From Sialis fuliginosa (Eukaryota; Arthropoda; Insecta; Megaloptera; Sialidae): DNA of 64,000 nucleotides. A program made the translations under genes and the position numbers. Shown in pieces: positions 2,881-63,239 of this stretch; position 1 is the first letter of the stretch; every line of letters starts with the position of its first letter. The notes under the pieces are model-generated. The model saw nothing but the letters and a program-made list of their open reading frames with translations. It was not told the origin of the DNA and did no database searches. The stretch covers positions 15,450,267-15,514,266 of the forward strand of contig OY540809.1 of the NCBI GenBank assembly GCA_961205875.1, written 5' to 3'.

Positions 2881-5029
2881 ATAGGTATGTAGTTATAACA
2901 GTGGTTCTATATATTTTAATCGTTAGTAGATGGGGATCCTCGAATTTATTATTTTAGAAAATAAAGAATAAATTACTATTTAATAAGAAGTTATGGATTT
3001 TGGCTTGTACCCAGAAAATTCATATTTAAAGTAATTTTCGATATTTTGTTAAGCGATTGTTCGGCTAGGTACTATTTTTTTAAATAAAAAATATGTACCT
3101 TTTGTTATGTTCGAAAAAATAAATATTTCATATACAAATAGTCAAAAATCATTGTTTTTCAATAAATGAAATATTGAAAGGTTTGGATAACTTAAAGATG
3201 CTCATAGTAAGAGTTCTGACAGCACGAATTAATTATAGTAGCCAAGTCTCACTCACAGCTCTAATTTCTGATTTCATCAATCAATATCAGTAAATATACT
3301 TTATATTATTTTACATTATGTCCAATTTTAATTGTAATTTTTTTTGTACTTGCTAAAAATAATACTTAAATTAATTTTTAATAAATCGCGTCGCCGCCGG
3401 TTTGGCCAAAAACGGCGACGCTGTCATAACTCTTCCTTGAGTATCTCTAGGTTAGCAGTCTTTCTACGCACTGCTACTGAAATTGATGAATTTAAACTTC
3501 ACAAAGCGATTTCAAATTACAACAAAAATTATCATCTCAATCAGATAACTAGTTATATTAATTTACATAACATCATTTTCTTCGGAACCATACCACCGTA
3601 CAAAGCGAGGTACACGCATACCAACCAACCAAAAAATATTTCACCAATTCCAAATAAAAAAAGTATATATAAATCCGCAATTTGACGATCTCAATAGAAC
3701 ACGTCGATTCGGCTTACTTACTGCGTGGGTGTATGCGAGAAAGCGTGGGTGTGAGCGGAGTCACCGCACAGAAGTGTCGGTACAGTGAGTGAGAGGTGCG
3801 GGATAGGGCACGGTGGAAGGGCGCTAGAAGGGAGGGGGGGGCGACACACAACACACGTAAATCAAACCGTGACTGCGACAGAAGCGGTGTTCCGGTTTAA
3901 TCCGGAGCCGAGGAAAAACCGGACAAAGGAAGCGTAATCCGAACGAGAATTTACGACATGTCGCGGTGCTCACATCCCCCCTTCCCTCAAACTCTCTCGT
4001 GCCACAACCCTGGAACATGTGGACTTTACCGGGATACTAAAGACTTATATTCCGAATTTCTTCGTTACGATTTAAAAAAAATAATATAAAAATATATAGA
4101 AGAAACATATATCATCAGCATAGTCTTTTTTGATTCTACCAAATGCTTATAATTCCAATAAATAAAAATAATATTTTAGTCTAAAGTTGTTGCGAAAGTT
4201 ACTCTGAAATTATTATTTTAAAAATTTTAATCATTTAATTTATTATTTGTTTTATCTTAAAACATTTTTACCACCATGCATGTGTAACACTTTTATAAAG
4301 AGAACATTCTTATTGCTATAAAATCCAATAATAATAAACAGGGTAAGTATTCCATTTAAAAAAAAGGTTAAATATCAATATATCTTTTAAATTCGACATT
4401 CAATTGATTTTTTCTTTTTGAGACCGGGAAAAAACTGATTCTTTGCCCATTCAACCGATCTTCTAGCTCCAATATTAACAGAGTTAGCAACTGGCGAACA
4501 GCCTGTATACATGAACATTTAATGACAGTAACATAATAATCAGTATTTTTTACTGGTAAAGAAACGCCAGGGCTTTTGAAGACAAAAAGCCACAATATCT
4601 CAACAAGAGAGTCCCCAAACTACTACGGGTCTTATCGCGACATACAATTATTAATCAGGAACCACGTCACATATCCGATAAAGCAAATGAAAACGACCCA
4701 CGATAACAGCATAGTCCCAACACATACTCACACACACTCACCCGAACACACACCCGCACCTTAAACACTTGATACATCTTCCCCTTTAACGTTTCTATCA
4801 AATTTGTATTATGTGAAAATGTTAAATACTCCTGCCTAATTATTTGTGTTAAATTTCTAGAATATATTTTCATATCAAATCAATGAATTATTACAATTTT
4901 AATTTGATACGTTTTTTAATGGAAAATATAAAAAATGTTATTTATAAATTGATATTTTTATGAAAGGATGAAATTTAAACGTTGAAATACGACTAAAATT
5001 TTTTTAATTTTAGATTTCGTATGTTTTTG

Positions 5030-5165
5030 TTATGTAGAAAATGACGTGAAAACTTGACATTTTCAAACCGCAGATCTGTATCTCAAACCATTCTTGAGAT
5101 ATGGATTCTCAAAATTTTAATTTTGGTGAAAATTTATCAAATTTCATGGTTCAAATTTTTATAAA
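5030..5165 (+). repeat. interspersed repeat fragment, TTTTCAAACCGCAG family
   Basis: ATGACGTGAAAACTTGACAT, TTTTCAAACCGCAGATCTGT and CTTGAGATATGGATTCTCAA match one arm of the foldback repeat at 35455 and the copy at 58808. Confidence 0.6.
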
Positions 5166-5779
5166 AATATCAAATTAATGATAAGAAATTAAGAAGGAAC
5201 ATTATAACTTACTATTTATCATGCATAACCAAACATATTCATATGCTTATAGGTAAGACAAATGTCTTCCAGGCTCTAACAGTTATTACTTATGCACTCA
5301 GAACACAATACCTAATTCCCAATTATCCAAACAGTCCCCATATGTACAGCATCCCACTAATAATCTCCCCAGATATCCAGTTATCATATAAAGCAATTTA
5401 TCTTAAAACAATTAAACAGTACTGCACATGTATATAATATAATAAATCATCTACAAAAATCCCACGTCGAAATTAGGGCATAATACACACCCCCCCGGGC
5501 ATTCTCCCAAAGTGCGAATAAGTGTACGCGGCGGTGGCCGCCCCCTCTAACAACCCTTTGTTTATTTGAAACAAATAATACATCAATGCCGTTAACCCTT
5601 TACTCACTAATCTGTCATTTATCGAACGGAAGGGTGAGCTATGTTGGATTGCTTACATTTCCTTTATTTGTTGTTAGAAAAGGTTTTATCTTGGCTTGAT
5701 CAGATTATGGATATTTTTTTAACATAGTACTTGATATAATCCATAGCATGCTATGTTTTTTTTGTATTTTATTAATTAC

Positions 5780-5905
5780 TAGCGCATTAGACCCGGTGTT
5801 ATCCTAGTTAATATCCACAAATTATACACCAAAACGTTCATTGTGAAACATTCAATACATTAGTGAAAACCGGAATAAAATCCGTTCAGTAGTTACTGAT
5901 TCTCA
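5780..5905 (+). repeat. interspersed repeat fragment, CCGGTGTTAT...GTGAAAACCGGAATAAAAT family
   Basis: Shares its wording (ACCCGGTGTTATCC, ACCGGAATAAAATCCGT) with copies at about 24235-24420 and 41205-41465. The latter two run on into short CAGACAGA repeats and an ACTTTGTTTTA or GTTGTTTTATG end. This looks like the 3' part of a non-LTR element or a SINE. Family not identified. Confidence 0.6.
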
Positions 5906-6074
5906 GTCTCATACAAACGAGTATCAATTTTTATATAAATAACTTAACTTATTTTGGCATTTCCGGTCAAATCTTAGAACGCAATTTTAATCTGATAGTA
6001 ACTTTAGATAAATTCTATTTATAAGTTTGTCATAATATTAAAAGGAATATAAAAACTTGCATTAATTTAGAATT

Positions 6075-6254
6075 TAGCTGTTATCCGTAACTTCTTGCAT
6101 AGAATTTGGATACAAAGTAGCCTATTTCCTTTCTCAGGATGCAAGTTATCTCCCTGTCAAATTTCATCAAGATTGGCTCAGCGGTTTAGTCGTGAAAAGA
6201 TAATACACAGACAAACAGACAAAGTTACTTTCGCATTTATAATATTAGTATGGA
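6075..6254 (-). mobile_element. Helitron-like repeat (Lep1/MINE type)
   Basis: Read on the minus strand it begins TCCATACTAATATTATAAAT and passes through the GACAGAC-type repeat and the AACCGCTGA block. Its terminal hairpin (CGCGGACGAAGTCGCG in better copies) is eroded. Non-autonomous, no coding capacity. Confidence 0.75.
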
Positions 6255-7505
6255 TACAATCGTGGCTATCCGTTCAATAAAGAGCTCTTTAAACTATTAC
6301 TAAAAAATAGGATTTTTAGGCTTTTTTCATCTTTTCAATTTTGGGACTAAATGCGAAAATTAGTTTAAGATGTACCTAGTATTATAAATACTCAGGTTTT
6401 TTTTTTGTATTTCGAATAGTATCTATATTTAAAATTTTGAAATAAAGTTTTACATTTTTTTTGAGATTTAAACATATTATTTTGATAATTTTAGATAAAA
6501 TTTTTAAGCAATTTCAACCATCGAAACCTCTATTATAGGCGGTTTAATCAGAAAAACAATTAAATATTCCAAAATAGAAAAAATTTGAAAAATTTATTTA
6601 TAACCGAATCAATTTAATATGGTTTATGTAATATGACTTTCACATATTATTTCGATTTTTCATTAGACACAAATTGAAAAATATAACTGCATCATACAAC
6701 CATATCAAATACACATGAACCAAAATGCAGTATTCATGTTCTGGCACTAAAACCTCACAATACAGTCATCCTTAGGGACTTAGAAGACCGTATGTAGCAT
6801 CACACTCACACACACGTAGATGTATATGTGTGACTGGGGTTCGAAGGAGTGTCGAGTGCACTTCGAGTGACTTTTTGAGTACCGCTTAACGTCCAATTGT
6901 TGAGTTATTTTGATTTAATTCACGCTTGTTACACTTCCTGATACAAATGCAATAAGGAAGTCGCCTAATTCTAATTGTACCGAATGTGTCAATTGGTTTA
7001 TTTATTTATTTATTTCTCGTCGTCTGAGGATGTACAGTATGATTATAAAGTAATCATACTTAAATATTTAATAACAATAACAAGTTTTTACTTTATACAA
7101 AGGTGTAATGAGTGCCATATGACTTTCTTATACGTAATATTGAGAGTGAGTTTAAAAAATGTATAAGATAAAAGTTTGTAGTTGTAGAGAATATTATCTA
7201 CAATTTATGTCCCATTAAATTTATTCGATATTTTATAAGTTTTCCAGAAATATTTAATAAACAAATGTATAAAAGTAAGCCATAAAGATGTTCTAGTAAA
7301 TAATAAGTTTAGGAATAAATTATTAGAAAACAGTGTTAATGAATGTAATATTTTATGCAAATACAATTACTTGTGATTCATAGAACACTAGATTTCAACA
7401 CAAGTGTCTGGTAAAATAAATAAATACATATATAAAAATATAATCGAAGGATTGAAACCGACATTGGTGCAGTGTTAAAACAAAGCAAACAAATAATCCG
7501 GGTTA

Positions 7506-7620
7506 ATGATGAACGCCCAATTTGCCTCCAGGGAGAACGATAGGGACCCGGAGCTGCCGGACAATCGCATTAGTGCACTGCGACATACCGCACCCCCAAC
7601 TCCTGCAGGGTTTAAACTAC
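7506..7620. promoter_or_regulatory. candidate conserved non-coding islet
   Basis: A block of balanced composition (GGGAGAACGATAGGGACC, GGACAATCGCATTAGTGC) in an AT-rich setting, matching no other repeat in the window. The short open frame across it has no recognisable domain. A role as an hth enhancer is possible but unproven. Confidence 0.25.
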
Positions 7621-7852
7621 CCCATGTATGTACAAATACAAACATTCATTATTTGTCTTGTGTCGATTTTTTTCGATTTTTTTTAAACTGGTGATACGTA
7701 TTAAAAATTACTAATCGGAAATAACGTGGTATTGTATTTCATATTATAAAAAAAAATCGTTAATACTGATTTTTTTACTTTTCATTTTTTGGTCGAAAAG
7801 TGACCTACCTTAATTTTGATAAATCTTTATATTTTAATCCAAAGAACATGTT

Positions 7853-8340
7853 TTGAGGGTTCCGTTGAAAACTAGGAACCCTTATAGTTTCACTCTGTTC
7901 GTCTGTCTATAAAAAGTTTATACTTATTAAGATGGAATTTGGTATAGTGACGTAGATTGATGACCCAAAAACAGAAATTATGAGATTTTTGAAAAAAAAA
8001 AGTATATTCAAACTTTTTTTCATTTATTTCATTGAATAGGTCCTCTAAAATGTAACAAAAAATATTAAATGACTCTTTGATTTGAATCCTTCAGTCACGA
8101 TATATTTGCTTTATGTGGTTATCAGAGCGTCCCCCCTTCTAATTTCTAAACTATCGATGCAAAAAATCTAAAAAAATTCCAGAATGTAGCTTTTAATTAG
8201 TACTTTCAATGAAATATATAACAAACACTGTCGCAATAATAGTTTATGAAAATTTTTGAAATCTCTTTCTTATAAATCGTAGTGAAAATTACTACGGAAC
8301 CTTATCATGTGTGTGCCTAACGCGCACTTGGCCATTTTAT
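7853..8340 (+). repeat. interspersed repeat beginning GGGTTCCGTTGAAAA
   Basis: Opens with AGGGTTCCGTTGAAAACTAG, then a TCTGTTCGTCTGTCTAT run, AATTTGGTATAGTGACGTAG and a polymorphic A/T tract. It closes near ACTACGGAACCTTATCATG. An inverted relative lies at 28478-28862. This is probably a decayed non-LTR-derived repeat. No intact frame. Confidence 0.6.
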
Positions 8341-8344
8341 TTTA

Positions 8345-10050
8345 GAAAAATATATATTTAACAAAAAAATTAAATTTGCATTTGTTCGATAAAAATTGTT
8401 TAATTAGTAAGTTATTTTTTTATAAAACTAGTTAGATTGGCTTCTGAATGATATAATAAGGTCTTCAGCCTCTATTCATTAATACATACATCATCATTAT
8501 TCATTACAAGAAAATGAATAAAAAAACATACACACCTTATACGTCTGCGAACACAAATTATTTATTCGCATACAAACACACATACAAACATATATACATG
8601 CATATTGCATAGCCACCACAATGTACCGGATATGCAATTGAAGTTGCTTGAGAAACGGTTTCCGGCACTGTTGCTACGGAAGTGCAATCAGCCGGGATTA
8701 TTGAATAATTACAGCAACATCTTGACCGTGAATATGTAACAAGCGTGTCCACTCGTAAGGTGTTTAGAGCAACACACTTGTGTGAGCAAAAACAAAATTT
8801 ATTTAATTAAGTAATTTTTAAATTAGTTCCAGGAATAGAATATTTTGAATAGGTCGAATTAATCTTCTAAGATTTTTATCAAACTATTTAAAATATAAAA
8901 CATACTCCTGTTTAGCGACATAGAACTCTGAAACTATACATTGCACAACATTCAGATTTGTCTTAAAATATTTGTTGTATAATATATTTATACATTTTAA
9001 ATTTTTAAATAAAAAGGTTTGGAAGTTACAGCTACATATTTAAATAAAATTCATAAAAAAATATTTTTTTCAATTACTTAAATCAGTAGAAAAAGGGTAT
9101 TTTTATTATCCTATACCTGCAAATACATGGGTTTTTATTTATTTTTAATAATTCGTTATTTTAAAATACTATTCATAATTTTTTTCTGAATTACTGACGT
9201 TTTAATTTTATTGCAAATACAATAATCGAGTTGATTAAAGTTTGAATGGTTAAGAACCCACTCATTTGATTTTGCGGACTCAAAAATAATTGCAATACTA
9301 ACATCCATTTATTAAATTAATGAGTTAAAACTACGAAACGATTGGAAACTAAAAGACGTACAACTAGAATAAATAAACATTTTAAGACCATTTTAATGTT
9401 TTTATGATGTATATCCACTATTTTTATCCACCCAGTATACATTTTGGATTAGATATAGTTGCAGTATTTTGTGGCGAGAGATCAAGAGAAGAGGGGTGAT
9501 GGGGGGGAGGGGGTTGATGGCAGCGGTGGCGGTAGCAATCACTCATCCGCGCGACGCCCGATGGCGCGCTAATCGCACTAGCATTGTCGGTGGTCAGTGA
9601 GTCGCGCATAATGGTCCCATAACAACTCCCGCGGAAACACACACACACGTGATGGTCTTCCGATATAATACAGGTTACCTCCTCTTCCCCCCCCCCTCTC
9701 CCTCAGCACCTCACATAGAACAGATATATCTCATACCGTCCATATATGTCGATTTAGAATTTTACTATAAAATAGAGTTTACTTAAAATTTTTGGAAAAA
9801 TGAAATTTTCCGGAATTTTTTTCTGCATTTTAAGAGAAGCCAACAGTTTATAGTCATAAAATCTTGATCTCAGTTTAAATTTGAAAACATTACTAATTAA
9901 TATTCAATTATTACATTTCTGAAAAATTCATTAATTTTATTGCAAAAGTTATAATGACTTTTTTTTATAGAAAACTGGCTGTTATCGACTCAGTTTGGTT
10001 AGGTAGGAGTTGCCAGACATAGAAAATAAGGACGCGTGTACAAATGTCTC
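8345..10050. other. gene-free intron stretch
   Basis: AT-rich sequence with two islets: 8530-8760 (CA-type repeat next to balanced sequence) and 9465-9720 (GGGG runs, then a CpG-rich block GTCGCGCATAATGG, a CA run and a C-run). The G-run block at about 9493-9516 fits a G-quadruplex pattern on the plus strand. No gene or complete repeat was recognised. Confidence 0.5.
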
Positions 10051-10194
10051 ACACCCATTTTTTCGGGATACAAAGTAGTATTTGTCCTTCCTCAAGATAT
10101 AAGCTATCTCCTTTCATCAAGATCGGTTCAGCAGTTTAACCGAGAAAAGGTAACATAGACAGACATACTTTCGCATTTATATTAGTAGTATGGA
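10050..10194 (-). mobile_element. Helitron-like repeat (Lep1/MINE type), internally shortened
   Basis: Minus-strand TCCATACTACTAATATAAAT start, then the AACCGATCTTGATGAAAG block and the ATACTACTTTGTATCCCGAA block. The CTAG end is not clear. The adjoining ACACCCATTTTTT and GTACAAATGTCTCACA wording links it to the variant copies at 46092 and 54102. Confidence 0.65.
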
Positions 10195-11079
10195 TTTAAT
10201 GATCTTTAAAAATTTTACGTAATATACATCGTTCTTGAGATATTTAAAAAAAAGAAACATTTTTTTGTATTTTTAATAATTAATTGCAAAACTTATTAAG
10301 CCAGAAAAACTGAAAATATTAAGTCCGCTTTTCTTAGTCGCATTAGCTTCTGAACAACCCATTTGATGATCTGTCATTAAATATCATCATATATTACTCA
10401 CATCCTAAAGTTTACATGTCTTATGAAAAATCGTTGGTGTATTCACATTAAAAAACACACGTTTGGTGACAGTAATGTCTGAAAAAATGACCTGTCGTGA
10501 TTTCTTCTAAGATCAAAGTGAAGGAAGCACTTAGAGAAAATGCTAAAAGATTATTTGTTTATTTTTTGATGTTTTTTTTTTATTTACTTTTGTCACATTA
10601 ACAGTCCATTTATTTAATTCGAGTGCAATTGCATCAAAGACAAACTGAATAACAAATTTACTTACGAATTGGCAAAGAGATGGATGTAATTAAATATTTA
10701 TTTGTAATAATTTACTTAACTTAAGTAAAGTTTACAGTTTTCTTTGATATTTGTTAAAATTAATAACACTAATTCACATGGTCATTAAAAAACTTTTTTT
10801 TTATGAAATATTTTGTAAAGTGAAATTATCTATTTTTACATAATAATTGTTGAGTTATAGATTAAGACACATCACTTAAGTAGTAGGAATAATTATATTC
10901 ATTACAATTAAACCCCATTAAGATAAGTTAGAACACCCATACAGAAAGCTAGCTAAAAATACATCGTATTTATTCTTATCTTAAATTATTTAATACAATA
11001 TACTTAATTTCTTTCTGTTTTAATGGTATCCTATTAATATAATTGTATGGAAGAGTGGTTTCCAAAATGTTTGATTTTT

Positions 11080-13825: not shown

Positions 13826-14282
13826 GTACCAATTCTTTTTTTCTTTTTTTATATATATTTCTAGATTGAATTTTATTTGAAGGGGTTCTTGTTAGAAGAC
13901 AAGACTTTTGAAATTATGACGGGATAGAAAAAAATTGACCATTGAAAACAGTGTACGCGATTTATATAAAATCAACTTTCAAATTGGGTCTCAAATGTAT
14001 ATAACAGTTCTCTTAAAGTTTCATGAAATATTTGACATGTTTTTCGTACGCGCAGTAAGTAAACACCAACAAACACTGCACTGTTAAAAATTTTTGTAAA
14101 TTTACTACATTTTTACTAAGCAGTTGCTTTGTAAAATTACAAACTCTCGTATTGTATTGGAATTTTCAAACGCATTCGTAGTAATATTGCAATTTGTAAT
14201 AACAAGAGTACTAAGCAGGTTGCAATTTTACAAATTTTTTGTATTCGTCAGAAACTTGTTGTAATTTTACCATTCAAAGTTG

Positions 14283-15110
14283 TAGAATTAAATCTAAAGT
14301 TTTGTAAAATTTCCATACATATTCGGAATTTAATTTTACCACAATTATCTGTAAAATTACTAACCAAAATTTGCAATTACAATCTCAAGAAGTGATTGGA
14401 AATTTACAAATCATTATTTATTTTTTCAAATTCTGTTTGCATTTTTACAAAAATTCATTCAAGTCATGAGCGCTATGTATTTTTACAAGTCTTGTTTGTA
14501 ATTTTAAGTCTAAAACTTTGTAAAATTTCTACACATATTCGGAATTTAATTTTACCACATTTATCTGTAAAATTACTAACCAAAATTTGCAATTACAATC
14601 TCAAGAAGTGATTGGAAATTTACAAATTATTATTTATTTTTTCAAATTCTGTTTGCATTTTTACAAAAATTCATTCAAGTCATGAGCGCTATGTATTTTT
14701 ACAATTCTTATTTGTAATTTCAAGTCTAAAACTTTGTAAAATTTCTACACATATTCGGATTTTGATTTTACCAAGATTAATAGTAAAATTACTAACCGAA
14801 ACTTGCAGTTACAATTACAGGAAATTTACAAATCATTACTTTTTTTTTTGAAAATTCTGTTTGCATTTTTACAAAATTTCTTTCAAGTCATGAGCGCTAT
14901 GTATTTTTACAATTCTTGTTTGTAATTTCAAGTCTAAAATTTTGTAAAATTTCTATACCTATTTGTAGTCTAATCTTACTACAGTTATCAAAAAAATGAC
15001 TAACTGAAATACGTAATCCAAATTGCAAAAAGTGATTGAAAAATTGTAAAACTTTAATTACTTTAGATTTGTTTATATTTTTACTAGTGTCTCTTACAAT
15101 CATATAGTTT
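14283..15110. repeat. left terminal tandem array, about 216-bp unit, roughly four copies
   Basis: The phrase TTTGTAAAATTTCYAYACAT recurs near 14297, 14513, 14731 and, more diverged, 14939, and CATGAGCGCTATGTATTTTT recurs near 14466, 14682 and 14888. The first two units are nearly identical, and divergence grows inward. The array sits inside the inverted end of the composite transposon. The short frames open in it are by-products of the repeat. Confidence 0.85.
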
Positions 15111-15696
15111 TATGTAATCTTCTAATTCTGCTGTGTAGTTTCAAGTATAAAACTTGGTATATTTATTTTGCATTTTTATAAAATTGTGACTTATGCAGAT
15201 TTAAAATTTAATTTGAATGCAGTTCTAAGTAAAATTAGTAGCAAACATTTATACTTGAATTGCAAGTATGAAGTATAGATTATAAAAAAATATTTTTTTT
15301 TTATTAAAATGTTTTAATATACATGTTGTTTCTGAATATGAAATATGTTAGTTTTATAAAAAAAACCTCATAGAATCGATCAAGTGTATAAAAAAAATTG
15401 TGAAAGAACCGAATTATTCACTGTGGTAAAAAATAGTGATAAAATTTAATTGTAAGTGTAATAGGGTATGTTCAAATCTGCATATCAACATTTTTTATAT
15501 TTGAAAGTAAGTAAATCTTTGCTAATTATTATTTATGAATTATATATAAACTGGTCAAAAAGCCTAAAACAACCTTTATAAATGCTCCATATGCCGGTGT
15601 AAAACAACCTTTAATTTTATTCGAATTTGCAAGTCCCGACCAGCATAGAAAAAATCATTGTTGCGTTTCTTTTGACATGCCGACACAAGTATAGAA

Positions 15697-17504
15697 CAGT
15701 GATTCTCAAAGTGTGGGTCGCGACTCCTAGGAAGGTCGCAGAAAAATTGATGACATAAACCGAGTTTAGTAAGCAAACAATTATTTTTTACTTGGTGTGA
15801 AAACAGTGTCCACTATTCGCTGAATTAACAATGACAGTTCTCTTGCCATTTGCAACCAACTTATTTATAGGCGAGCGGATTATCGAGTCTAGCTCGCTTA
15901 GAAATGACAATAACCGACCAATCGACGTTCTAGTGGCTAAAAATGATTTTATTAAATTCTTTATATTTTTCTGAGAAAAAACATCTATATACATGATATT
16001 TTTTTATGCGGTCCTTCAATAGGTACACACATTTTTTTGTTTAATAAATCTAAATCTGCATTAAAAAATCTGAAAAAATTATGTAAGCTTCATTGGATTA
16101 AAATGAACATTTTTTGTCTCATAAACTTTTTTTTAAAATCAATTGTTTTGAAGATAAAAAATATTTATACTTTAAAAATAGCGAAAAATTCGTATATTTG
16201 TGATTTTTTTTCTCGGAAACTAATTGTTCAATCAAAATAAATCAAAAACAAAAAGAATCAGCCAACTTTGAACTATAACTATATTTTTTTTCATTTTGAT
16301 CATTACTGTAATTAAATGTAAAAACTTCATTAGAGCCGAACTCACTCTTTGCGCCGTAAATCGATACCATGGCTGGCTACAACATTCATTTAATAATAAT
16401 TGAAATATTTAAATACTGGGATGAATGCATCAATAAAAACACTTTAGAATATTTTTATTGCACATTTATTTGTCACGATTATTTTCTTTATTATAATATT
16501 ATACTTATCAGAACATCTACAAAAAATATTTCTGTTCTTGTTGCGGAAAATTTCCTTGTACAGCTAAAACATGCTCTTGTTTGGATTTAGATTTAAAATG
16601 TTGTTCAGTTTGTAGATGTTTTGATAAGTGTAACAATAAAGAAAATAATTGTAACAAATAAATGTGCAATAAAAATATTCTAAAGTGTTTTTATTGAAAC
16701 TTTCATCCCAGTATTTAAATATTTCAATTATTAAACGAAAATTGTAGCCAGCCATGGTATCGATTTACGGCGCAAGGAGTGAGTTCGGCTCTAATGAAGT
16801 TTTTACATTTAATTACAGTAATAATCAAAATGAAAAAAAATCTAATTATAGTTTAAAGTTGGCTGATTCTTTTTGTTTATGTTTTATTCTGATTGAACAA
16901 TTAGTTACCGAGAAAAAAATTCACAAATATACGAATTTTTCGCTATTTTTAAAGTTAAAATATTTTTTATCTTCAAAACTATAGCTTTAAAAAAAAAGTT
17001 TATGAGACAAAAAATGTTTATTTTAATCCAATGAAGCTTACATAATTTTTTCAGATTTTTTAATGCAGATTTAGATTTATTAAACAAAAAAATGTGTGTA
17101 CCTATTGAAGGACCGCATAAAAAAATATCATGTATATAGATGTTTTTTCTCAGAAAAATATAAAGAATTTAATAAAATCATTTTTAGCCACTAGAACGTC
17201 GATTGGTTGGTTAGTGTACTCGAAATAGCTGTAATCCGCTCGCCCTATTATACGAAATGGTATTTTCAGTACTGACCAACATCAAAACAAAGCCGCGCTC
17301 ACTCATCACATTAAATTTAATTTAAAATATTTTAAGTAAACTCAATTAGTTAGTTAAGTTAATGTCGAAAAATATACAAATAATATTTTGTTCAAAGATG
17401 TACTCGAGATAAGTTATTAACTTGTTATTAATTATTATTGATATTAAATTTCGCTATTAATCACAATTATGAGTGATTCAATTCAAAAAGTTTGAGAAAT
17501 ACTG
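15697..17504. mobile_element. non-autonomous hAT transposon with long inverted arms, nested in the composite element
   Basis: Left end CAGTGATTCTCAAAGTGTGG, right end (reverse-complemented) CAGTATTTCTCAAACTTTTT, both typical hAT termini. The flanking 8-mers are GTATAGAA (15689-15696) and GTATAAAA (17505-17512), a target duplication with one difference. Most of the body is an inverted repeat: arms at about 15868-16523 and 16609-17247, roughly 640 bp each, around an 85-bp spacer. The spacer and the start of the right arm hold a Cys-rich frame. No hAT transposase frame was recognised. Inserted after the host element was in place. Confidence 0.85.
16497..16661 (+). pseudogene. fragment encoding a CXC (tesmin/TSO1-like) Cys-rich domain inside the hAT element
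   Basis: A 54-codon open stretch without its own start codon ends in TAA at 16659-16661. Its cysteines follow C-x-C-x5-C-x4-C-x-C-x6-C-x3-C-x-C-x3-C (for example KTCSCLDLDLKC), close to the CXC/CRC DNA-binding fold of tesmin, TSO1 and MSL2, which also occurs in insect transposon proteins. It begins in the left arm, crosses the palindrome spacer and ends in the right arm. An AATAAA follows at about 16668. Likely the last exon of a protein from an autonomous relative, or a captured piece. No upstream exon was identified. The domain call rests on cysteine spacing alone. Confidence 0.5.
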
Positions 17505-17994
17505 GTATAAAACATAGTTTCATGTGAACGCGCTGGCGGAAGGGGTAAATTTTGTTACATTTTATTTTCTCACGATGCTAAGCTACTGCGTATGAGCAAT
17601 AATACGATTTTTGAACAGTCGTTATTAAAAATTTGTTGTGTAAAGATTGATGCTGCTACAAGTGATTTTTTATAATTCTGTTGTTTAATCCAATAATTGT
17701 TTTTAACGTTTATTGAATATATATCTGTTATAATTCAGGTAACTTTTTCACCTACTTACATCTTTAAGCTGTAGCCATTTGTCTAAACAAATGATTTTTA
17801 TTTTTGGAGTTAAAATTTTAAGGCAAAAGAAATATTTTCTTGTTTCAAATAATTTTTTTCCAAAACTAAGATTTTAATATTTGAAATGTGTAATCAAATT
17901 TTGATCAGTGTTTTAAAATTTCACGACAAATAAGTATTACTTCTAACGCGTGTACATAAGTACACATACCCACTTTTTGTTTTGTTTTTTATAG

Positions 17995-19397
17995 ACATGG
18001 ATCATAAATATCGTCTTATATTATATTATATTATATATACATGGCTTCATTTTGAAGAAGATTCTGATAAGGTATATTGCAAATATATGCCAGGCCTGCT
18101 TGATGATCCAAATGTATGCGAAGAACTGCAAGAAATGGTGAAAAATTTAGAACCACCCAAATCTACATAGCCAACATTTCTAGTGGATATTCGCGGAAGT
18201 GCTCGTAAGTAATGATATGTTATTTTAAAATAAATTCTTTACCACAATATTAATTTTTTTACATTTTATTAATTTTTTATGAGCAAAAAAAATATTTTGA
18301 CATATTATTAATCAATTTTTTAGATACTTATAAAGAAGCTGAAAATAAAATCGTTGAGTTAGAAACAAAACCATATGTATACTCGACAGCAAATGAAGAA
18401 TCTGCAAAAAAAAGCAGATACTGATAAGAAGGCTCTGAAGCGCAAATTTGTTGCAAAGAATAAAGAGCTCATTAACAAACAATTTAGTCAAGCAGCATTG
18501 AAATGGACAGACGATCTTGGTATAAAAATTCGTAAGTAGTTTTAATTTTTTTTGGTAAAATTTTTTGTTATAAATATGCAACAAATATATTTTTTTTAAT
18601 GTTAGATTCATCTAATCCTAAAAGTCAACACACAAAAAGAAAAAAATTGAATTCTAAATCGATTTCAATCCCAAGTTGTCACCCATCTGATGACACTGAC
18701 ATTAAGTCAACTTCAACGGAATTTTCCAGTGATGAAGACAACACTAACGGATTAGATCCAAACAATATATTAAATCCAAAAAGGATTGTAAAAAAAAAAC
18801 GCTGAAGAAAAACTCGAGACCAGTGCAAATCAACCAATGACAATAGGTAAAAACATACATCGTTTTTTTTTTCTTTAATGTGTATTGGAAACGTGATTTT
18901 TTTTGTTACAGAAGATCTGCATCAATTCATATCGAGCTGTTTTGTAAGCATCGGCAAACGTTTGTCAAATTTAGGAAGTCAATTAACCAATTATTCAACC
19001 AGATTACAAAGCCTTGAAAATGTCATTGAAAAACTTCATAATTCAACAAGCATTTTGAGTGACGAAATCAGTAACTCTGAGAGTGAATTTGACATGATTC
19101 TTCCACTACAAAATGAAGAAAGTTTTATTAAATTTAATGATAAAATTAAAAATGATGTTGATTTTAAAAAAAAATTGGTAAGTAATCACAAATAAAATTA
19201 TTATTTTTTTATATAAGCCCTATTTTATATAATTCGTTTATAAGACATGAATAATAATTTTCTTTTTTTAGATTTACAAATTGTTATGCTAAATAAACAA
19301 GACAGTAGATATAACCAAGAATATTGGAAAGATACTCCGTGCCTACATTACTCGTGATTTGGCAATTAATTATGTGGCAATCAAAACGTCAGAATAA
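17995..19397 (+). pseudogene. broken DUF4806-family gene of the composite transposon (five exons)
   Basis: Five segments with good splice sites line up: 17995-18204, 18324-18531, 18606-18846, 18912-19177 and 19272-19397. The first three introns share one phase. The N-terminal exon carries MDHKYRLIL and an acidic stretch (HFEEDSDKVYCKYMPG). Exon 2 is Lys-rich and helical, and exon 3 is a Ser/Asp-rich linker (STEFSSDEDNTN). Exon 4 has a coiled-coil-like region (NYSTRLQSLENVIEKLHN) and then PLQNEESFIKFNDKIKND, and exon 5 holds ITKNIGKILRAYITRDLAIN. The last two match the DUF4806 C-terminal domain of insect proteins of unknown function. AATAAA signals follow near 19510-19535. The copy carries about four breaks and is not expected to be functional. 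The family assignment is from memory of its motifs. Confidence 0.7.
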
Positions 19398-19559
19398 TCT
19401 TCAAAAAAAATTTAAAATTTGTGTTAGCATTAAATTATGTTATTATTTTCATAATATAAATTATTGATAACACTGTTATAATTAATGACATATGTTTAAT
19501 TGTTAATTAAATAATTAATAAATTAATATTTAATAAATATTTTATATTTAACACTAAAA

Positions 19560-19971
19560 TACGCTGTTGTAGCATTCATTGATTTAACAATTTTTTTCAG
19601 TAAAATTACAGTCTGATATTGAAATAAAGCTATGCAAGTTATATCCCGATGCATAGTAATATTGCAACGAGCGGTTTGTATTTTTTTCAAATTGACTTGA
19701 TGTAAGTTGGGTAGTAAAAATTCAATACTGCAACAAATAGTTTGTAATTTTTCGAAACTAAATTGGTATTAGTTGGGTTGAAAAATTACGATATATGGTT
19801 GTAAAATTACTAAATGTATTTAATCTAATTTGTTTAGTAAAATTCCGACTATTGTATTGTAATATTACTAAACAATTTTTTAATAAAGGTTAGTAATATT
19901 GCAACAAATAGTTTGTAATTTTTCTAAACTAAATTGGTATAAATTGTCTAGTATAATTACAATAAATTTTT
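19560..19971. repeat. right terminal region of the composite transposon, short AT words
   Basis: Irregular repeats of GTAATATTGCAACAAATAG, TTTGTAATTTTTC and TTAGTAAAATTRC wording occur about every 60-180 bp. They mirror, in reverse, the words of the left end, and lead into the 219-bp duplication. No gene. Confidence 0.7.
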
Positions 19972-20409
19972 GTAAAATTACTAAAATTATTAGAAACATT
20001 TGGCTTAGTAAAATTACGAATAATGTACAGTAATATTACTAAACATAAGTCTAGTAAATGATTAGTAATTTTGCGACAGATGATTTGTAATAGTTTAAAA
20101 TTGAGTTGTGATAAATTGTATAGTAAATTTACAAAACTGTGTTCCATAATTCCGAAAATTGTGGTGCGTAAAAACTTCCTACACATTTTTGTAAAATTAC
20201 TAAAATTATTAGAAACATTTGGCTTAGTAAAATTACGAATAATGTACAGTAATATTACTAAACATAAGTCTAGTAAATGATTAGTAATTTTGCGACAGAT
20301 GATTTGTAATAGTTTAAAATTGAGTTGTGATAAATTGTATAGTAAATTTACAAAACTGTGTTCCATAATTCCGAAAATTGTGGTGCGTAAAAACTTCCTA
20401 CACATTTTT
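19972..20409. repeat. 219-bp tandem duplication in the right end of the composite transposon
   Basis: Two copies (19972-20190 and 20191-20409) look identical by eye. For example, TGTTCCATAATTCCGAAAAT occurs in each at the same offset. The duplication makes a repetitive 158-codon open frame on the minus strand, an artefact and not a gene. The near-identity points to a recent duplication or slippage. Confidence 0.9.
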
Positions 20410-20637
20410 GTAAAATTACTAAAGAAATTTTTGACAGTGTGGTGATATTATGGAAATTATTTCGTACAATCAGAGTCACCAACTGTGTTATAATAAGTTG
20501 AAATATCACTAACCTAAATTCTAAAACAAATCCATAGATAATATTACAGAATAAATACCCCGTTGTAAGCTAATAAGTTGTTAGTTTCTTTATAATAAAA
20601 CTGAATACAGTATAAGATGATTCCATACACAGGGTGT

Positions 20638-21085
20638 CCCACGGGAAGGTGTTGAAACTAATCAGCTGTCATTTTTAAATGGAGTTATTGAAAAAATAAA
20701 TGAAAATATCGTTGAAAAGAGGAGTCTGCAATTTTATTCGGGCTATAGTAGAACAAGCAAGTACGTTCGCGTCAAAATGAATAATCTGACTTTTTCTCTT
20801 GAAAAGTGCTTTTTTTGAGAAGAAAAGTGTTTGACAATTCTAATATAAAATAATTTAATAATTCAATTAAAATAATTTGTTATGTTATTTTTAACAGAAT
20901 TATCGATATTTAGTATATTTTTCATCAATAAAATAAATTGATGCACAAAAATTTTATAAAATTTTATTTATACCCATTAAAAACTGCAGACTTTCTTCTT
21001 TTCGACGCTTTTTTTTTTCAATAATAGCATCCATTTGAAAATGACAGCTGATTAGTTACAACACCTTTCCGTGGGACACCCTGTG
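20638..21085. mobile_element. MITE with CACAGGGTGTCCCAC ends
   Basis: Inverted ends CACAGGGTGTCCCACGGGAA / CACAGGGTGTCCCACGGAAA, continuing to the ATCAGCTGTCATTTT block on both sides (more than 50 bp). TA flanks each side, consistent with a 2-bp target duplication as in Tc1/mariner- or ISL2EU-like elements. A diverged copy lies at 36409-36907. Non-coding. Confidence 0.8.
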
Positions 21086-21089
21086 TATT

Positions 21090-23478
21090 TTTACATTTTA
21101 TTAACTTCTACTTACTTCATCCATAAACCTTATTTAAAAAATAACGAAAAAAAATATGCATTCTTCGATTTAAAGAATTATTTATATCGTCATTCAATGC
21201 AACATTGTTTACAATACTTCATACACACGTACCAAGCTCATTAAATTCATAAACGACACAAAAGATTCTTGTATATGAGACTACAAAAATAAAATATCTT
21301 AGCATCTGTGCGTCCAGATATCAGAATCGAGAATTATAATAATATATATATATAAAAAAGAAAAAGTACAAGAAACATGACACACACAAATACCGTGAGA
21401 TGTGTGCAGCGTTTTCCCACAAAGATTATAATTAGGTGGATGTGTGTACGTGCAGTGGCGCTATCTAGAAAGTACGTGCGGGGGTCGTGTATGTACATGA
21501 ATAATAAATGTATATATTCAAATCGATCATTTTTGACGTGAATAACATCTAGTGTTTCAAGCCAGAAACTTGATGTAACGCGCAGAGATCAGTTTTGCGC
21601 GCAAGCGTAAATGTAAAATCAGAATATCTCAACACTCAGAGCAGTCACCACGCAGGTTTTGGTCTCTAATTAAAGATCTTGATTAGAATACAAAACATTT
21701 AACCTGTTTTAATGGGTAATAAATTTAATATTATAAAAAAATATGAACAAAAAATTAAATTTTGTATATCCACGATTACGCATGGAAATACTAAATAACT
21801 GAATTGAAGAAAAATAAAATAAAACCGACTTCAAAAACTGTTAAATTTAATTACTATAATATACTTTTTAGTGTTTTTTTTTATAATTAAGTATTAATAA
21901 GTATAATTTTTTAGGGTGGGTAGATTTAACTTTTTCACGTTGGCGCCAGTGTACGTACGACACATACATACACGGTGAAGGTGTTAAACTTAACCAGTTG
22001 GTAACAAATCATGGGACGCAGTAGGTGACGTAACAGCGGGACGCGCTATGTGGACATTAACAAGGCTGCCCGCGGTGAGGCTTCATTTGCATACATCGGT
22101 AACGCGATACACACAAGCCTCGAAGGCCTTTTTGTAGTAGGTACCGGCCGCCGGCGGTGTTGGTACAACCGTTCCGTCGGATTGTGTCGTCCAGTAACAT
22201 CGGAGAGAGAGAGAGAGACGCTATTAAAAATAAACTACATATCATGATAAATTGTTTGAATGTTTCTCAATATGCAGGAGCTCTACTGTAAGACTGGCCT
22301 AAATAATTTTCTAATCATTATTGCTTCCGAAGATACGGAAAGCTTTGCGATCGTTTTTCAATGAGAATAAAATGTTCACTTGATCTTTCCGATTCAGATC
22401 AAGACAAACACTTTTTTCCGTGTCTGAACCACTTAACCGATCTTAATGAAACTTGGTTGGTTGTTGGATATGGCTAGAGGACGGTCCCGGTGTAAGAAGT
22501 CAGGGTTACATCTCAAAATAGTTATTTTTCAAGATATCTCAAAAACGACACATTTCACGTGAAAATTTTATAGAATCTTTTTTGTAGAGCATTTAAGTCC
22601 ACTACAACTTTGCAGTAAAACATTCCATTTTACTAGAGAATTTAAATTTAAATTAAAATTGTTAAAAAACTAAAAATAAACGAAAATAATCAGGCGCGTA
22701 TTAAGAAAAGATTCACAAACTTTTGCAAATAGAGTTTTTTTTGTTGAGAATATCGTATATCGATGCTCTACTGTATTCATATCTGTCCTATTAAAAAGCT
22801 ATCGGTTCCTGCAAAAATGCCATCAGATCTTAAAACATAAAATTCTGATGTCAATGTTGAATTCTATGATTTATAAATCATTAACAATGAAAAAAACCCG
22901 ATTCTTTATTGTACAAAATTGTATTATAATTCGATTATAGTTTTTTAAGTTGCACAATCATTGGGTGGCCTCATAAAAACGTCGGGCATTTAATTTTTTC
23001 TCAACGTAATGTAAATTCCGTTCCATCAGTGCACAGCTAACTAACAATCTATCACAACTTGTAGCAGTAGTAGAGAGTTTTTGTACGTTTTCACACTTAA
23101 TTGATTTAGTTCTTCAACATCACTCACTCATGAAATAGACAACTTTGTCTATTTTCTTTTTAGTAAAAAATCATAACAATGCGACTGGCCGAAAGAAGCT
23201 AAGCATGCGGATATGAAATATAAGAATGTCATCTCAGGTATCTAAATTATTTCCTTTGATGTATTTTTTTTAAATTTTACCGTAGAAAATATGGTTTGGG
23301 ACTGTATTCATTTTTAATAGATTCGTAAATTATTTAACTACATACAGTACTAAAAAACATTACGTAATGGAGTAATTTCTTTGTTCCATTTACGCGGTTT
23401 TTTACGCGCTGTTTTCATGGAACCAATTAATCGCTTAAACGAAGAGATTACTTTATCTAGAAGTTTAAAAATATATTA
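21090..23478. other. gene-free intron stretch with one GC-rich islet and old repeat pieces
   Basis: AT-rich. 21410-21490 and 21940-22220 are more balanced. 21809-21850 is a fragment of the GAAGTCGGTT family. 22385-22640 (TGAACCACTTAACCGATCTT, TTCAAGATATCTC) looks like the tail of a decayed non-LTR element. 23380-23460 shares GCTGTTTTCATGGAACCAAT with 320-390. No gene. Confidence 0.5.
22020..22215. promoter_or_regulatory. candidate conserved non-coding islet
   Basis: A balanced CpG-containing block with ATTTGCATA (a POU-type octamer half) near 22087 and an inverted GGCCGCCGGC, ending in a GA run. Frames are open on both strands over it, which argues against either being coding. Role inferred. 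Confidence 0.3.
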
Positions 23479-26998: not shown

Positions 26999-27367
26999 CA
27001 TTTTATAATTCATAGATGACAACGGTCAATCGCATTGGTGGCATCTCGTAAAGAAACTGGAATTTGATTTTACTTAACAAAAAAAAAACAGTAATTTAAT
27101 GTCAAAGAAAAAGCGAACAACTTCGTTAAGGAATTCCTATAATTCAACAAAACCCAATTCAAATCAAACCTAACAATTCTTTACAATTTTAAATCTAATT
27201 TGCAGAAATTCAACAGTAAAAACTAATCAGTGTCAAAAAAACTCACAAAAACTGAATGGATAAAAAAAACCTTTTTTGATAATTATCTCTATTAAATCTA
27301 CAAGAATTCCCACCAAATGCATTACAGATTCTTCTAAATTCTAAACCAACAGAATTTAATCAAATAC

Positions 27368-27733
27368 CTCTTTATTAAATCAATGTAATTACCAAAGTAC
27401 GCAATTATAGTTTGTTTTTAAATTATAGCCTTTTATTGTTTGTTGTTTATATTTTTCTTCAGTGATGGACAAAGCACAACCAGTAATAAAAAAACGTAAA
27501 AATGCTATGAAAATATAATAATAAATAAATATAGATTACACTAATAATTAATTTAAATGTTCACCATTTTGATACCCAATTGTCATCAAATTAAGCTATT
27601 TTACAGATAAATGTCTATAGATTATGATTAAGTAATGGCAGTAATCAAATATCAACTTTTTCTAATTTAGTACATTTAATTAAACAAGAATCCAATACTG
27701 AGGTATGATGATCCAAGACTTGTGCAAGTACCT
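27368..27733 (-). mobile_element. GGTACTGG-family MITE, reverse orientation
   Basis: Minus-strand start GGTACTTGCACAAGTCTTGG, then TTGATATTTGATTACTGCCA and AATTGGGTATCAAAATGGTG. The other end is truncated near TTAAATCAATGTAATTACC. Confidence 0.8.
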
Positions 27734-43756: not shown

Positions 43757-44212
43757 GGTACTGGCTTCAGTCTTGGATACCCTAGTGTTGGACACCAAAT
43801 TAGAAAAATTTGTTGATATTTGATTACTGCCATTACTGAATCATAATCTATAGACATTCAGCTGTAAAACATCTTAATTTGATGGCATTCGGTCAATGGG
43901 TGTCAAAATGGTCGACATTTAAACTAATTATTAGTGTAATCTATTTATTGATTATTATATTACTATAGCATCTGCTTTACATTGTTTCAAATTTTACGAT
44001 TCTTTATTTTATAACTTTTGTGTGTCCATTATTGGTTTTACTTTATTCATTACTAGAGAAAAAATATAAACAAAATAAAAGGCGGACTTTCGTAATTAAA
44101 TTGATTTAATAAAGGGATACTTGTTTTATTAGTAACATGAGTTCATGAAAATTACAGAAAAAGCCCATCAATTCCAAAAAACAGTTAACCTTGCTCTGAA
44201 AGCGTCCAAGAC
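43757..44212 (+). mobile_element. GGTACTGG-family MITE
   Basis: Starts GGTACTGGCTTCAGTCTTGG and contains TGTTGATATTTGATTACTGC, TTTGATGGCATTCGGTCAAT and CATGAGTTCATGAAAATTAC. It ends near GCTCTGAAAGCGTCCAAGAC. Confidence 0.85.
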
Positions 44213-47416: not shown

Positions 47417-47784
47417 GGTACTGGCACCAGTCTTGGATAATACCCAATTGTTGGGCACTTTTTAAATGTACTAAATTAGAAAGATTTGTTAATATTTGAT
47501 AACTGCCATTACTGAATCATAATCTTTGGACATTTAATTGTAAAATAGCTTAATTTGATGACAATTTGCCAATGGGTATAAAAATGGTGGATATTAAAAC
47601 TAATTATTACTGTAATCTATATATTAATTATTATATCATTACCATAGCATCTGCTTTATATTGTTTCAAAATTTGAAATGAAATTGATTTAATAAAGAAA
47701 TATTTATTTTATTTATGAGTTCATGAGAATTACAAAAAACAGTGTATACCTTGCTTTTAAAGCGATCAAGACTGGTGCCAGTAT
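47417..47784 (+). mobile_element. GGTACTGG-family MITE, both ends intact
   Basis: Begins GGTACTGGCACCAGTCTTGG and ends (reverse-complemented) ATACTGGCACCAGTCTTGAT. The interior is shortened relative to other copies: GTATAAAAATGGTGGATATT is followed soon by TTGATTTAATAAAGAAATAT. It serves as a guide copy for the ends. Confidence 0.9.
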
Positions 47785-47859
47785 CTTATTTAAGTTCTGT
47801 AATGATTTGACAAAAATACAAAGTGCACGAACCCCGTTGATTCTAGCGGGAGTACAGTT

Positions 47860-48297: not shown

Positions 48298-48806
48298 TTG
48301 ATGGACTACTTTGTTGTAATTCTCATGAACCCATGTTACTAATAAAACAACTACTTCTTTGATAAATCAATTTAATTACCAAAATCCGCAAACAAAATTT
48401 CTTTTTTTAATTATCGCCTTTTATTTTTTTTATTTTTTTTCTCCAGTAAAGAACAACGTAAATCCAATAATGAACATCCAGTGATGAACACTTGCTAAAA
48501 ATTACAAAATGATAAATACAAAGACACAAACGTTATAAAATAAAGAATCGTAAAAAAACCAATGTAAAGCATATATAAGAATATAAACTTTTCTTGATAG
48601 TGTGCTGAGCTGCGATAATTATTTGTCCACTGTTTTTAAACAAAATGATCAATTATCATCAAATCACGCTGTTTTACAGTTAAATGTATATACATAGATT
48701 AATATCCAGTAATGACAGTAATAAAATATTAACAAATACTTCTAATTCAATACATTTAATTTTAAAATGTTCAACATTGGGGTATTGTTCATGACTGGTA
48801 CCAGTA
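48298..48806 (-). mobile_element. GGTACTGG-family MITE, reverse orientation
   Basis: The right edge, reverse-complemented, starts TACTGGTACCAGTCATGAAC. The interior holds GTAATTCTCATGAACCCATG and TATTACTGTCATTACTGGAT in the expected reverse order. It is the longest interior of the family here. Confidence 0.85.
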
Positions 48807-53100: not shown

Positions 53101-53419
53101 ACAGCTTAATTTAATGAAAATCGGCCATTGGGTGTCAAAATGGTGGGCATTTAAACTAATTATTAGAAAAATCTACTTATTAATTATAATATTATCATAG
53201 CATCTTCTTTACATTGTTTCAATTTTTACGATTATTTATTTTATAACTTTTGCGTCATAGTTACAATTTAAAAAACGAACTTTGGTAATTAAATTAGTTT
53301 TAATAAAGAGGTACTTGTTTTATTAGTAACATGAGTTCATTAGAATTACAAAAAAGAAGCCTATCAATCCCAAAAAACTGTATACCATGCTCTTAAAGCG
53401 GCTAAGATTGGTGCCAGTA
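53101..53419 (+). mobile_element. GGTACTGG-family MITE, right fragment
   Basis: Resumes at ACAGCTTAATTTAATGAAAA and runs through GTGTCAAAATGGTGGGCATT and TAACATGAGTTCATTAGAAT to the end, reverse-complemented TACTGGCACCAATCTTAGCC. With 49739-49772 it makes one MITE split by the palindrome. Confidence 0.85.
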
Positions 53420-53424
53420 ACTTT

Positions 53425-58175: not shown

Positions 58176-58668
58176 GGTACTAGCACTAGTCTTGGATCAT
58201 ATCCTAGTGTTGGACACTTGTTTAATTAAATGTACTAAATTAGAAATATTTGTTGATATTTGATTATTGCCATTAGTCTATCATAATCTATAGACACCTC
58301 ACTCTAAAACAGCTTAATTTGATGATAATCGGCCAATGGGTGTCAAAGTGCTGGACATTTAAACTAATTATCAGTGTAATCTATTTATTAATTATTATAC
58401 GATTCCTTATTTTATAACTTTTGTTTCGTAGTATACTTAATATTTTGTAATCATTAGCAAGTGTTCATCACTGGGTACCCATTACTAGTTTTACTTTATC
58501 CATTATTGGAAAAAAACATAAACAAAATAAAGGACTATAATTAAAAAATACTATACTTGCGGTAATTAAATTGATTTAATAAAGAGGAACTTGTTTTATT
58601 TGTAACATGAGTTCATGAGAATTTCAAAAAATAATCCCTTGCTCTTAAAGTGTCCAAAAATGGTGTGC
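58176..58668 (+). mobile_element. GGTACTGG-family MITE
   Basis: Starts GGTACTAGCACTAGTCTTGG and continues with TGATATTTGATTATTGCCAT, GATGATAATCGGCCAATGGG and TTTGTAACATGAGTTCATGA. The right end is eroded (GTCCAAAAATGGTGTGCG). Confidence 0.85.
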
Positions 58669-62640: not shown

Positions 62641-62802
62641 GCTTTAAACTATATTGCCGATGTATATACATACACTCTAGATTGTTTAATGTATAACGTT
62701 TCATTTTGCTTAAAAAAAATTAAAAACAGTATTTTTTTCTGTTACACAAAAATATCATTTTATTATTAGTCAATCAAAATAAAGTTTACACTATTACAGA
62801 AT

Positions 62803-63112
62803 AAGGTATTGGCGCACCAGGTTTTAATAGCAAGGTATACTATTTTTTGGGATTGATGGGCTTCTTTTTTGTAATTCCCATGAACTCATGTTACTAATAA
62901 AACAAGTAACTCTTTAAAAATCAATTTAATTATCAAAATCTGCAAATATAGTTTTTTAAATTTATTATTATTTTGTTTATGTTTTTTCTCCAGTAATGGA
63001 TAAAGTAAAACCAGTAATTGGCACCCAGTGATGGATACACTACGATCTATAGATTATGATTCAGTAATGGCAGTAATCAAATATCAACAAATATTTCTAG
63101 TTTAGCTTACAA
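62803..63112 (-). mobile_element. GGTACTGG-family MITE, partial, reverse orientation
   Basis: GGGATTGATGGGCTTCTTTT, CATGAACTCATGTTACTAAT and GATTCAGTAATGGCAGTAAT are in the reverse order of the family. The far end is lost after TTTCTAGTTTAGC. Confidence 0.75.
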
Positions 63113-63239
63113 TTAGTAAATAGTTGATAATATAAAAACAGTAAATGCTAAAATATTGATCGAATAAAACTAATTGTCTTCAAGATAAAATAAAAAGAAT
63201 AATACCATAGCAATCTATGTTTTTGTTATATTTTAATCA

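Follow-up and report, generated by a model that had tools for sequence, protein, structure and literature searches.

At positions 14079 to 20439 of the window, the whole 64,000-nucleotide stretch analysed here, a gene of the DUF4806 class lies between transposon-like inverted ends, which raises the question of whether DUF4806 proteins belong to mobile elements and, if so, in which capacity. A sequence-only reading of the locus had taken the gene for either an unrecognised transposase or an accessory cargo protein of an undescribed system. DUF4806, given as a BEN subtype in the accessible text of PMC11075544, is of unknown function and unevenly distributed across animal genomes, with counts of 69 and 54 in two Hydra species versus 0 to 6 in five others, in a table that also includes transposase domains (PMC7642931, accessible part); a physical link to a transposase would give the family a testable job. 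No published link between DUF4806 and a transposase was found in the literature searched, Repbase and most subscription journals being outside its reach.

A young, high-copy transposon family

The element spans 6,361 bp (14079..20439, + strand) and is a non-autonomous transposon with CACTA-like ends and near-identical copies genome-wide. The left terminal inverted repeat, CACTGTTAAAAATTT (14079..14093, + strand, 0 mismatches), and the right one (20425..20439, - strand, 0 mismatches to CACTGTCAAAAATTT and one against the left repeat) were found where the sequence-only reading had placed them. Judged from the window alone the pair is within chance, as the 15-bp end with up to two mismatches has 5 matches versus 2.26 expected and at least 5 in 10 of 100 shuffles; the genome counts decide in its favour. 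Exact genome matches to CACTGTNAAAAATTT amount to 428 (212 forward, 216 reverse), against the 76 (30 and 46) of the reversed control. Among the first 100 matches listed, 26 have no partner and neighbouring matches converge within 12 kb in 37 cases; of these 37 pairs, 35 span 6,082-6,532 bp, one 8,573 bp and one 9,654 bp. A genome search with exon 4 of the enclosed gene returned 172 candidate places.

Flanking sequence varies from copy to copy. The window copy is bordered by a TG target duplication (14077..14078 and 20440..20441), recognised by flank comparison and by a related empty site in L052. An identical 2-bp duplication is present in seven of the eight copies with both flanks (TA in four, TG in two including the window, AA in one), the eighth, L069, having CG and TG at its borders; a 3-bp duplication occurs in none of the eight. 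TA stands at 24 of 30 left flanks and 23 of 30 right flanks of family copies. Related empty sites in which the dinucleotide is present once were identified for the window copy and for C1:24127115, and in three further alignments the junction itself is gapped or mismatched.

Both termini are rich in repeats. The left array (14096..15238) contains 216-bp tandem units at 14293-15004 and a GTAAAATTAC-like motif at 18 positions, and the right array (19724..20423) consists of 171-bp and 219-bp units with the motif at 18 positions. With one mismatch allowed, strand hits to GTAAAATTAC number 19 in the left 1,250 bp and 23 in the right 812 bp, at 18 positions on each side, where 0.49 and 0.35 are expected; the interior 3,880 bp has 0 against 1.03 expected. 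The locus at 14079-20439 is thus a single copy from a DNA transposon family that is young, high in copy number and recently multiplied, and the inverted ends, repeat-rich termini and clear transposon context of the earlier reading are borne out, including by the comparisons proposed with it, of same-ended copies elsewhere and of filled with empty sites. The CACTG..CAGTG ends, the 2-bp, mostly TA duplications and the subterminal repeats point to the CMC (CACTA/EnSpm-Mirage-Chapaev) group: CAC..GTG-type inverted ends and dense subterminal repeats are both criteria of the group, and 2 bp lies within the range of 2-5 bp given for CMC duplications in the accessible text of PMC12730594.

The element also contains an insert (15697..17504), called hAT-like from its ends only (CAGTGATTCTCAAA and TTTGAGAAATACTG, with 8-bp flanks GTATAGAA and GTATAAAA), which has long inverted arms (15907-16492 and 16635-17217). 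Its left border is found in 30 of 30 left-end loci and the insertion therefore predates the spread of the family; the insertion described by the sequence-only reading is present, and its being "later" does not hold.

The window family is probably non-autonomous. No transposase was detected in the four copies read whole, of about 170, the best E value in tblastn with four CMC-type transposases being 0.38; this is the outcome of the proposed search for a DDE transposase in long copies, as far as those four extend. Likewise, no autonomous element with the family's ends was found among the few of about 170 copies read. Two over-long copies were considered as autonomous candidates and discarded: the extra 3.5 kb of L069 resembles a Helitron at its ends by eye (TC..CTAG between A and T) and gave no transposase match, and L063, with roughly 2.2 kb of extra sequence in its left arm, gave none below E 0.38. 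The genome-wide transposase family search is incomplete, C11 being PF02992-positive yet absent from its listing.

A DUF4806-like gene dead before the family spread

The gene model has five exons on the + strand. Exon 1 (17997..18204) carries an in-frame stop at 18168-18170, the same in W, L063 and L064; exon 2 (18324..18531) has a broken frame in all four copies read; exon 3 (18606..18846) of the window copy loses its frame close to the end; exon 4 (18912..19177) is open and encodes the N-terminal part of the DUF4806 domain; and exon 5 (19272..19397) encodes the remainder, with an in-frame stop at 19290-19292 that is common to 33 of 33 copies read there. The frame of the window copy is thus broken in exons 1, 2, 3 and 5. 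With X at the stop, exons 4 and 5 score highest in Pfam against PF16064 (DUF4806), at 20.5 bits (E 5.9e-4); the cut-off is 25 bits, and the gene is for this reason named DUF4806-like. The family call made from the sequence is in this way weakly supported, its profile ranking first under the threshold, with the correction that the five-exon frame is broken. A PF16064 profile search of the genome was uninformative, giving 0 candidates with equally silent controls; an intron interrupts the domain.

The gene was already dead before the family spread. Since all 33 copies read at exon 5 carry the stop, its protein is not the transposase of this element and was not needed in cis. The same decay during multiplication, together with the lack of a transposase in the family copies read whole, agrees with an accidental capture, in which a CMC-type element took up DUF4806 as cargo with no role in transposition. 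This explanation is nevertheless unlikely, as genes of DUF4806 type lie directly downstream of CMC-type transposases at three other places, C13, C6 and C14:2.94M, and the C13 and C14 pairs are so far diverged (transposases 42% identical) that a single accidental capture is hard to fit.

Pairing of DUF4806 with CMC-type transposases

At C13 an intact CMC-type transposase of 714 aa is followed, 190 bp downstream, by the start of an open DUF4806 gene. The pair occupies C13:17827005-17831051, and repeats are present downstream of it. The ATG of its DUF4806 gene comes after TTACAG, which resembles a splice acceptor, so that both genes may be on one transcript. The spliced model of the second gene (404 aa) matches PF16064 with 31.9 bits (E 1.7e-7), over the 25-bit cut-off and as its only Pfam hit above cut-off, and no DDE pattern was seen in it. 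The transposase, with D220, D296, C315xxC318, H518xxxH522 and E542, fits the CMC pattern D, D, C(2)C, H(3-4)H, E given in the accessible text of PMC12730594; it has no match to Pfam Transposase_21 (PF02992) at E <= 1 and came to light in a protein search with the C10 protein, itself PF02992-positive, as query (E 7e-24).

These observations bear directly on the first of the two roles proposed from the sequence. That the DUF4806 protein is itself the family's transposase would agree with the mobility of the family, whose ends enclose no other spliced gene model; the gene is broken in every one of the copies read while the family still multiplied, its intact relative accompanies a separate transposase of CMC pattern, and no DDE pattern was seen in the protein of that relative. 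The reading is extremely improbable and close to refuted, and an accessory, or partner, protein fits better.

The DUF4806 domains of the window and C13 align (28% identity, E 9e-6), and an intron interrupts both of them at one and the same alignment column. The N-terminal exons of the window gene have no similarity to the C13 protein, and an intron common to exons 1-2 of both genes was dropped as a candidate because the proteins are dissimilar there. The C13 DUF4806 query matches C13 and C6 only. C6 holds partial, decayed pieces of a C13-type pair, with the transposase piece (89% identical) and the DUF4806 exons in the same order and strand. At C14:2.94M a broken transposase, 42% identical to that of C13, is followed 272 bp further by a relative of the C13 N-terminus (E 6e-7, single comparison), and this C14 N-terminal region has a meaningful E value only at its own place.

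The C13 pair might instead be domesticated, or be two host neighbours, with a separate history for the DUF4806 of the window. It is single and intact, no convincing terminal repeats were found around it in 6.7 kb, and the two domains are identical at so few positions; against this stand the decayed pieces at C6 in the same order, the third pair on C14 and the intron common to both domains, which make such an origin unlikely. Sequence common to C13 and C6 from C:697 onward adjoins a weak inverted match at C:691, which was insufficient to call an element end there.

The pairing of DUF4806 with a CMC-type transposase elsewhere in the genome is well supported and ties the domain to mobile elements, as had been proposed. 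It is not general, because the 17 kb covered at each of the transposases of C10 and C14:1.73M contain no DUF4806 gene. The C10 transposase is of CMC type, and the ends seen there by eye are of CACTGTTTTTA type but have no matching duplication; in that of C14:1.73M R replaces the second H of the pattern. Among viral contigs no relatives of the transposase were found, and 22 pattern matches for DUF4806 included no relative; phages and NCBIfam gave no match and PDB one chance-level hit.

The pairing suggests that DUF4806 proteins are transposon partners. We consider a two-gene origin fairly probable, in which the window family would be a transposase-less CMC-type derivative and DUF4806 a TNPA-like DNA-binding partner; descent of the family from a transposase and DUF4806 pair is most likely, and DUF4806 is probably the DNA-binding second protein of one animal CMC lineage. 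The ancestor would have been an animal transposon with two genes, a DDE transposase and then DUF4806. Its transposase would cut at the CACTG termini and leave a 2-bp, TA-preferring duplication, and the DUF4806 protein may bind the subterminal repeats and help to join the ends, as TNPA does in maize En/Spm. The window family would lack the transposase of this ancestor; it gained the hAT-like insertion, its DUF4806 gene decayed, and it then multiplied recently, presumably mobilised in trans with proteins from a different element. The sequence-only reading of an undescribed system stands in part: the system is not wholly undescribed, because a known transposase group occurs among its relatives, an outcome that the reading itself had named as counting against it.

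Comparison with known systems

Extended to the whole family, the proposal that DUF4806 serves one lineage of animal CMC transposases as DNA-binding partner, a counterpart of TNPA drawn from an unrelated BEN-like domain, is tentative and slightly more doubtful than not. Were it true, the many DUF4806 "host genes" annotated in fish, cnidarians and insects would be genes of transposons, whether live, dead or domesticated, those of zebrafish and insects would become candidates for transposon domestication, annotators would be warned that such genes may be mobile, and some animal CACTA-like elements would likewise have a two-protein design.

DUF4806 (PF16064) proteins resemble the C13 gene, which exceeds the Pfam cut-off, and more weakly exons 4 and 5 of the window; they differ in that no transposon role is stated for them in the accessible text of the literature naming DUF4806. 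With animal CMC transposons the window family has in common the CAC..GTG ends, the short duplication and the subterminal repeats, and a transposase of the group is present in the same genome; the family differs in having no transposase of its own in the copies read whole, and DUF4806 as second gene. The best-described animal CACTA relatives begin with CCC according to the accessible part of PMC1636069, whereas the window family begins with CACTG. Plant CACTA elements make 3-bp duplications, as in the soybean example (PMC2613891, accessible part), compared with 2 bp here.

A second gene that acts on DNA also accompanies the CMC transposase in fungal EnSpm and other transposons with TET/JBP; there it encodes an enzyme that changes DNA methylation, whereas in the window family it is DUF4806 (PMC12730594, accessible text). 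Maize En/Spm, with TNPD and TNPA, is the proposed functional parallel: it combines a transposase gene with a second gene, has subterminal repeat arrays, and its defective copies are mobilised in trans (PMC2613891, accessible part). TNPA, however, is made in maize by alternative splicing of the same gene (PMC1636069; PMC2613891, accessible parts), unlike the separate DUF4806 gene, and the likeness proposed here is one of function.

Copies, target sites and age of the transposon family

The two 15-bp ends of the window element (14079-20439, 6,361 bp) lie exactly where the sequence-only reading had placed them, and on the window sequence alone their pairing does not exceed chance. Searches of the genome (392 Mb in 20 contigs, the window being C1:15450267-15514266) settled the matter. 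With the right 265 bp as query, 167 candidate places came up (40 scored, all ~100% identical), and with the left 242 bp, 164 (40 scored, all 100%); exact CACTGTNAAAAATTT occurs 428 times versus 76 for its reversed control. Among the first 100 CACTGTNAAAAATTT places listed, 37 convergent pairs were found, 35 of them spanning 6,082-6,532 bp; a further 26 of these 100 had no partner within 12 kb, and some of the unpaired matches may be chance, as the control count indicates, and others cut copies or relatives. The window element is real.

The family has also moved. Flanking sequences vary from copy to copy, TA adjoins the ends in 24/30 left-end and 23/30 right-end loci, and an exact 2-bp duplication, extending to 3 bp in none, is present in seven of the eight copies with both flanks (the single exception being locus L069). 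For the window copy and that at C1:24127115, the joined flanks align across the junction with element-free repeats carrying the dinucleotide once; three more such alignments show junction gaps or mismatches and are no more than consistent with this. At 73-90% identity to the target sites, these repeats are relatives of the sites rather than the sites themselves. Pieces of the repeat family targeted by several copies elsewhere, ~66-89% identical, also occur in the window (27357-27684, 43798-44208, 47462-47791, 48298-48774, 53109-53423, 58213-58638 and 62800-63115). Just right of the transposon lies a small MITE-like inverted repeat (20612-21101) with ends like CACAGGGTGTCCCACGG and 72-nt arms, 88% complementary and 346 nt apart; an arm is found again at ~36.4-36.9 kb.

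Sequence divergence indicates that the spread is recent: compared in pairs, 30 right ends differ by substitutions at a median of 0.06%, a mean of 0.7% and a maximum of 9.7%, in a sample of best matches that includes the window's own copy (L029) and leans young. Exon 4 as query gave 172 candidates, and each of the 150 scored was at least 98% identical.

Gene content and class of the element

The DUF4806-like gene (17997-19397) comprises five exons in a model built from splice sites. With X for stop, exons 4 and 5 place DUF4806 (PF16064) top among Pfam families at 20.5 bits, under the curated cut-off of 25 bits; the original family call is thus right as the best match and weak for this copy. In the window copy a stop interrupts exon 1, the frame of exon 2 is shifted, that of exon 3 breaks close to the 3' end, and exon 5 has an early stop. 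The exon 5 stop recurs in 32/32 copies of one set plus L069, the exon 1 stop in all three copies having the whole exon, and the broken exon 2 frame in 4/4 copies. Since these lesions are common to the copies, the gene was already dead when the family began to spread. The spread is also younger than the hAT-like insert (15697-17504), whose left border is present in 30/30 left-end loci; the insert is a snapback element whose arms measure 491 and 99 nt and are 95-96% complementary.

In its CAC..GTG termini, 2-bp duplication and subterminal arrays, the element agrees with the CMC group (CACTA/EnSpm, Mirage, Chapaev), for which mostly CA..TG ends and duplications of 2-5 bp are described (PMC12730594). 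Published animal CACTA relatives share the 2-bp repeats, but their ends begin CCC (PMC1636069). The motif GTAAAATTAC is packed into both element ends with none in the interior, in a count omitting element positions 1,251-1,600 and 5,481-5,550; because the motif was selected on this very sequence, the shuffle control speaks to density and not prediction.

Four CMC-type queries against the window copy, L063, L064 and L069 gave one transposase match at E 0.38 and none better, the two longest of these copies holding other insertions. Most simply, the family moved in trans. In the longer copy L069, exon 1 carries a ~3.5 kb insertion (~3827-7380), Helitron-like by its ends only.

CMC-type transposases and a probable DUF4806 partner

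A genome search with PF02992 (Transposase_21) returned two loci, C10 and C14:1.73M; it misses C11, PF02992-positive on direct scan, so failure to appear among its hits carries little weight. With the C10 transposase as protein query, 16 matches among 25 candidates were obtained, including C11 (933-aa frame), C13 (716-aa frame) and broken pieces. The C13 transposase has no PF02992 match, yet in an alignment with the others it shows the CMC residue pattern. At C10 (L065 and L066 joined, 7314-11002) an intact 748-aa PF02992 transposase frame is bounded by CACTGTTTTTA-type ends with differing flanking dinucleotides, and a second gene seems to be lacking there. The intact C11 CMC transposase frame (L071, 1501-4299) is 50% identical to that of C10 and has a long acidic D/E run close to its N-terminus. 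Broken CMC transposase pieces, several seemingly duplicated, cluster at C14:5946980-6306526.

At C13, a spliced gene on the transposase strand begins with an ATG 190 bp past the transposase stop, directly 3' of a TTACAG acceptor-like site; its seven-exon model (404 aa) is open throughout and scores 31.9 bits for DUF4806, above the cut-off. As genome query its protein matched C13 and C6 only (10 matches, 9 candidates). C6 holds a transposase piece 89% identical to C13 over residues 129-211 followed by DUF4806 exons; strand and order agree with C13, and the sequence is incomplete and interrupted by stops. At C14:2.94M, 272 bp past a transposase with stops (42% identical to C13), lies a sequence related to the N-terminus of the C13 DUF4806 protein (E 6e-7, single comparison) and then a retroelement-like frame; no DUF4806 domain proper was seen at this locus. 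The pairing is very probably real. When eight transposase loci were compared locally with the DUF4806 query, just C13 and C14:2.94M matched at E <0.1; C10 and C14:1.73M had no match within 17 kb each, and C11, L075, L076 and L077 were represented by just 3.4-4.7 kb each. Pairing seems to mark one CMC transposase lineage, not all. The suggestion that the DUF4806 protein is an unrecognised transposase is rejected; that of a partner protein gains support from this gene pairing in the same genome, its function being predicted.

Probable descent of the family and comparison with En/Spm

The DUF4806 domains of window exons 4 and 5 and of the C13 gene can be aligned (28% identity, E 9e-6), with a phase-0 intron at the same alignment column in both. 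The upstream exons show no detectable similarity, and the transposase loci retrieved contained no window-family ends that could be seen. We infer that the family probably descended from such a transposase and DUF4806 pair. DUF4806 has been mentioned for a zebrafish sex chromosome, Hydra genomes, an ambrosia beetle and a mosquito scan, in passages that state no transposon role.

In maize En/Spm, TNPA binds subterminal repeats and is required along with TNPD, and both can be supplied in trans to defective elements (PMC2613891). By analogy, the DUF4806 protein could quite possibly do the job of TNPA beside a CMC-type transposase, the likeness lying in a probable DNA-binding protein next to such a transposase and in DUF4806-carrying elements with dense subterminal arrays.
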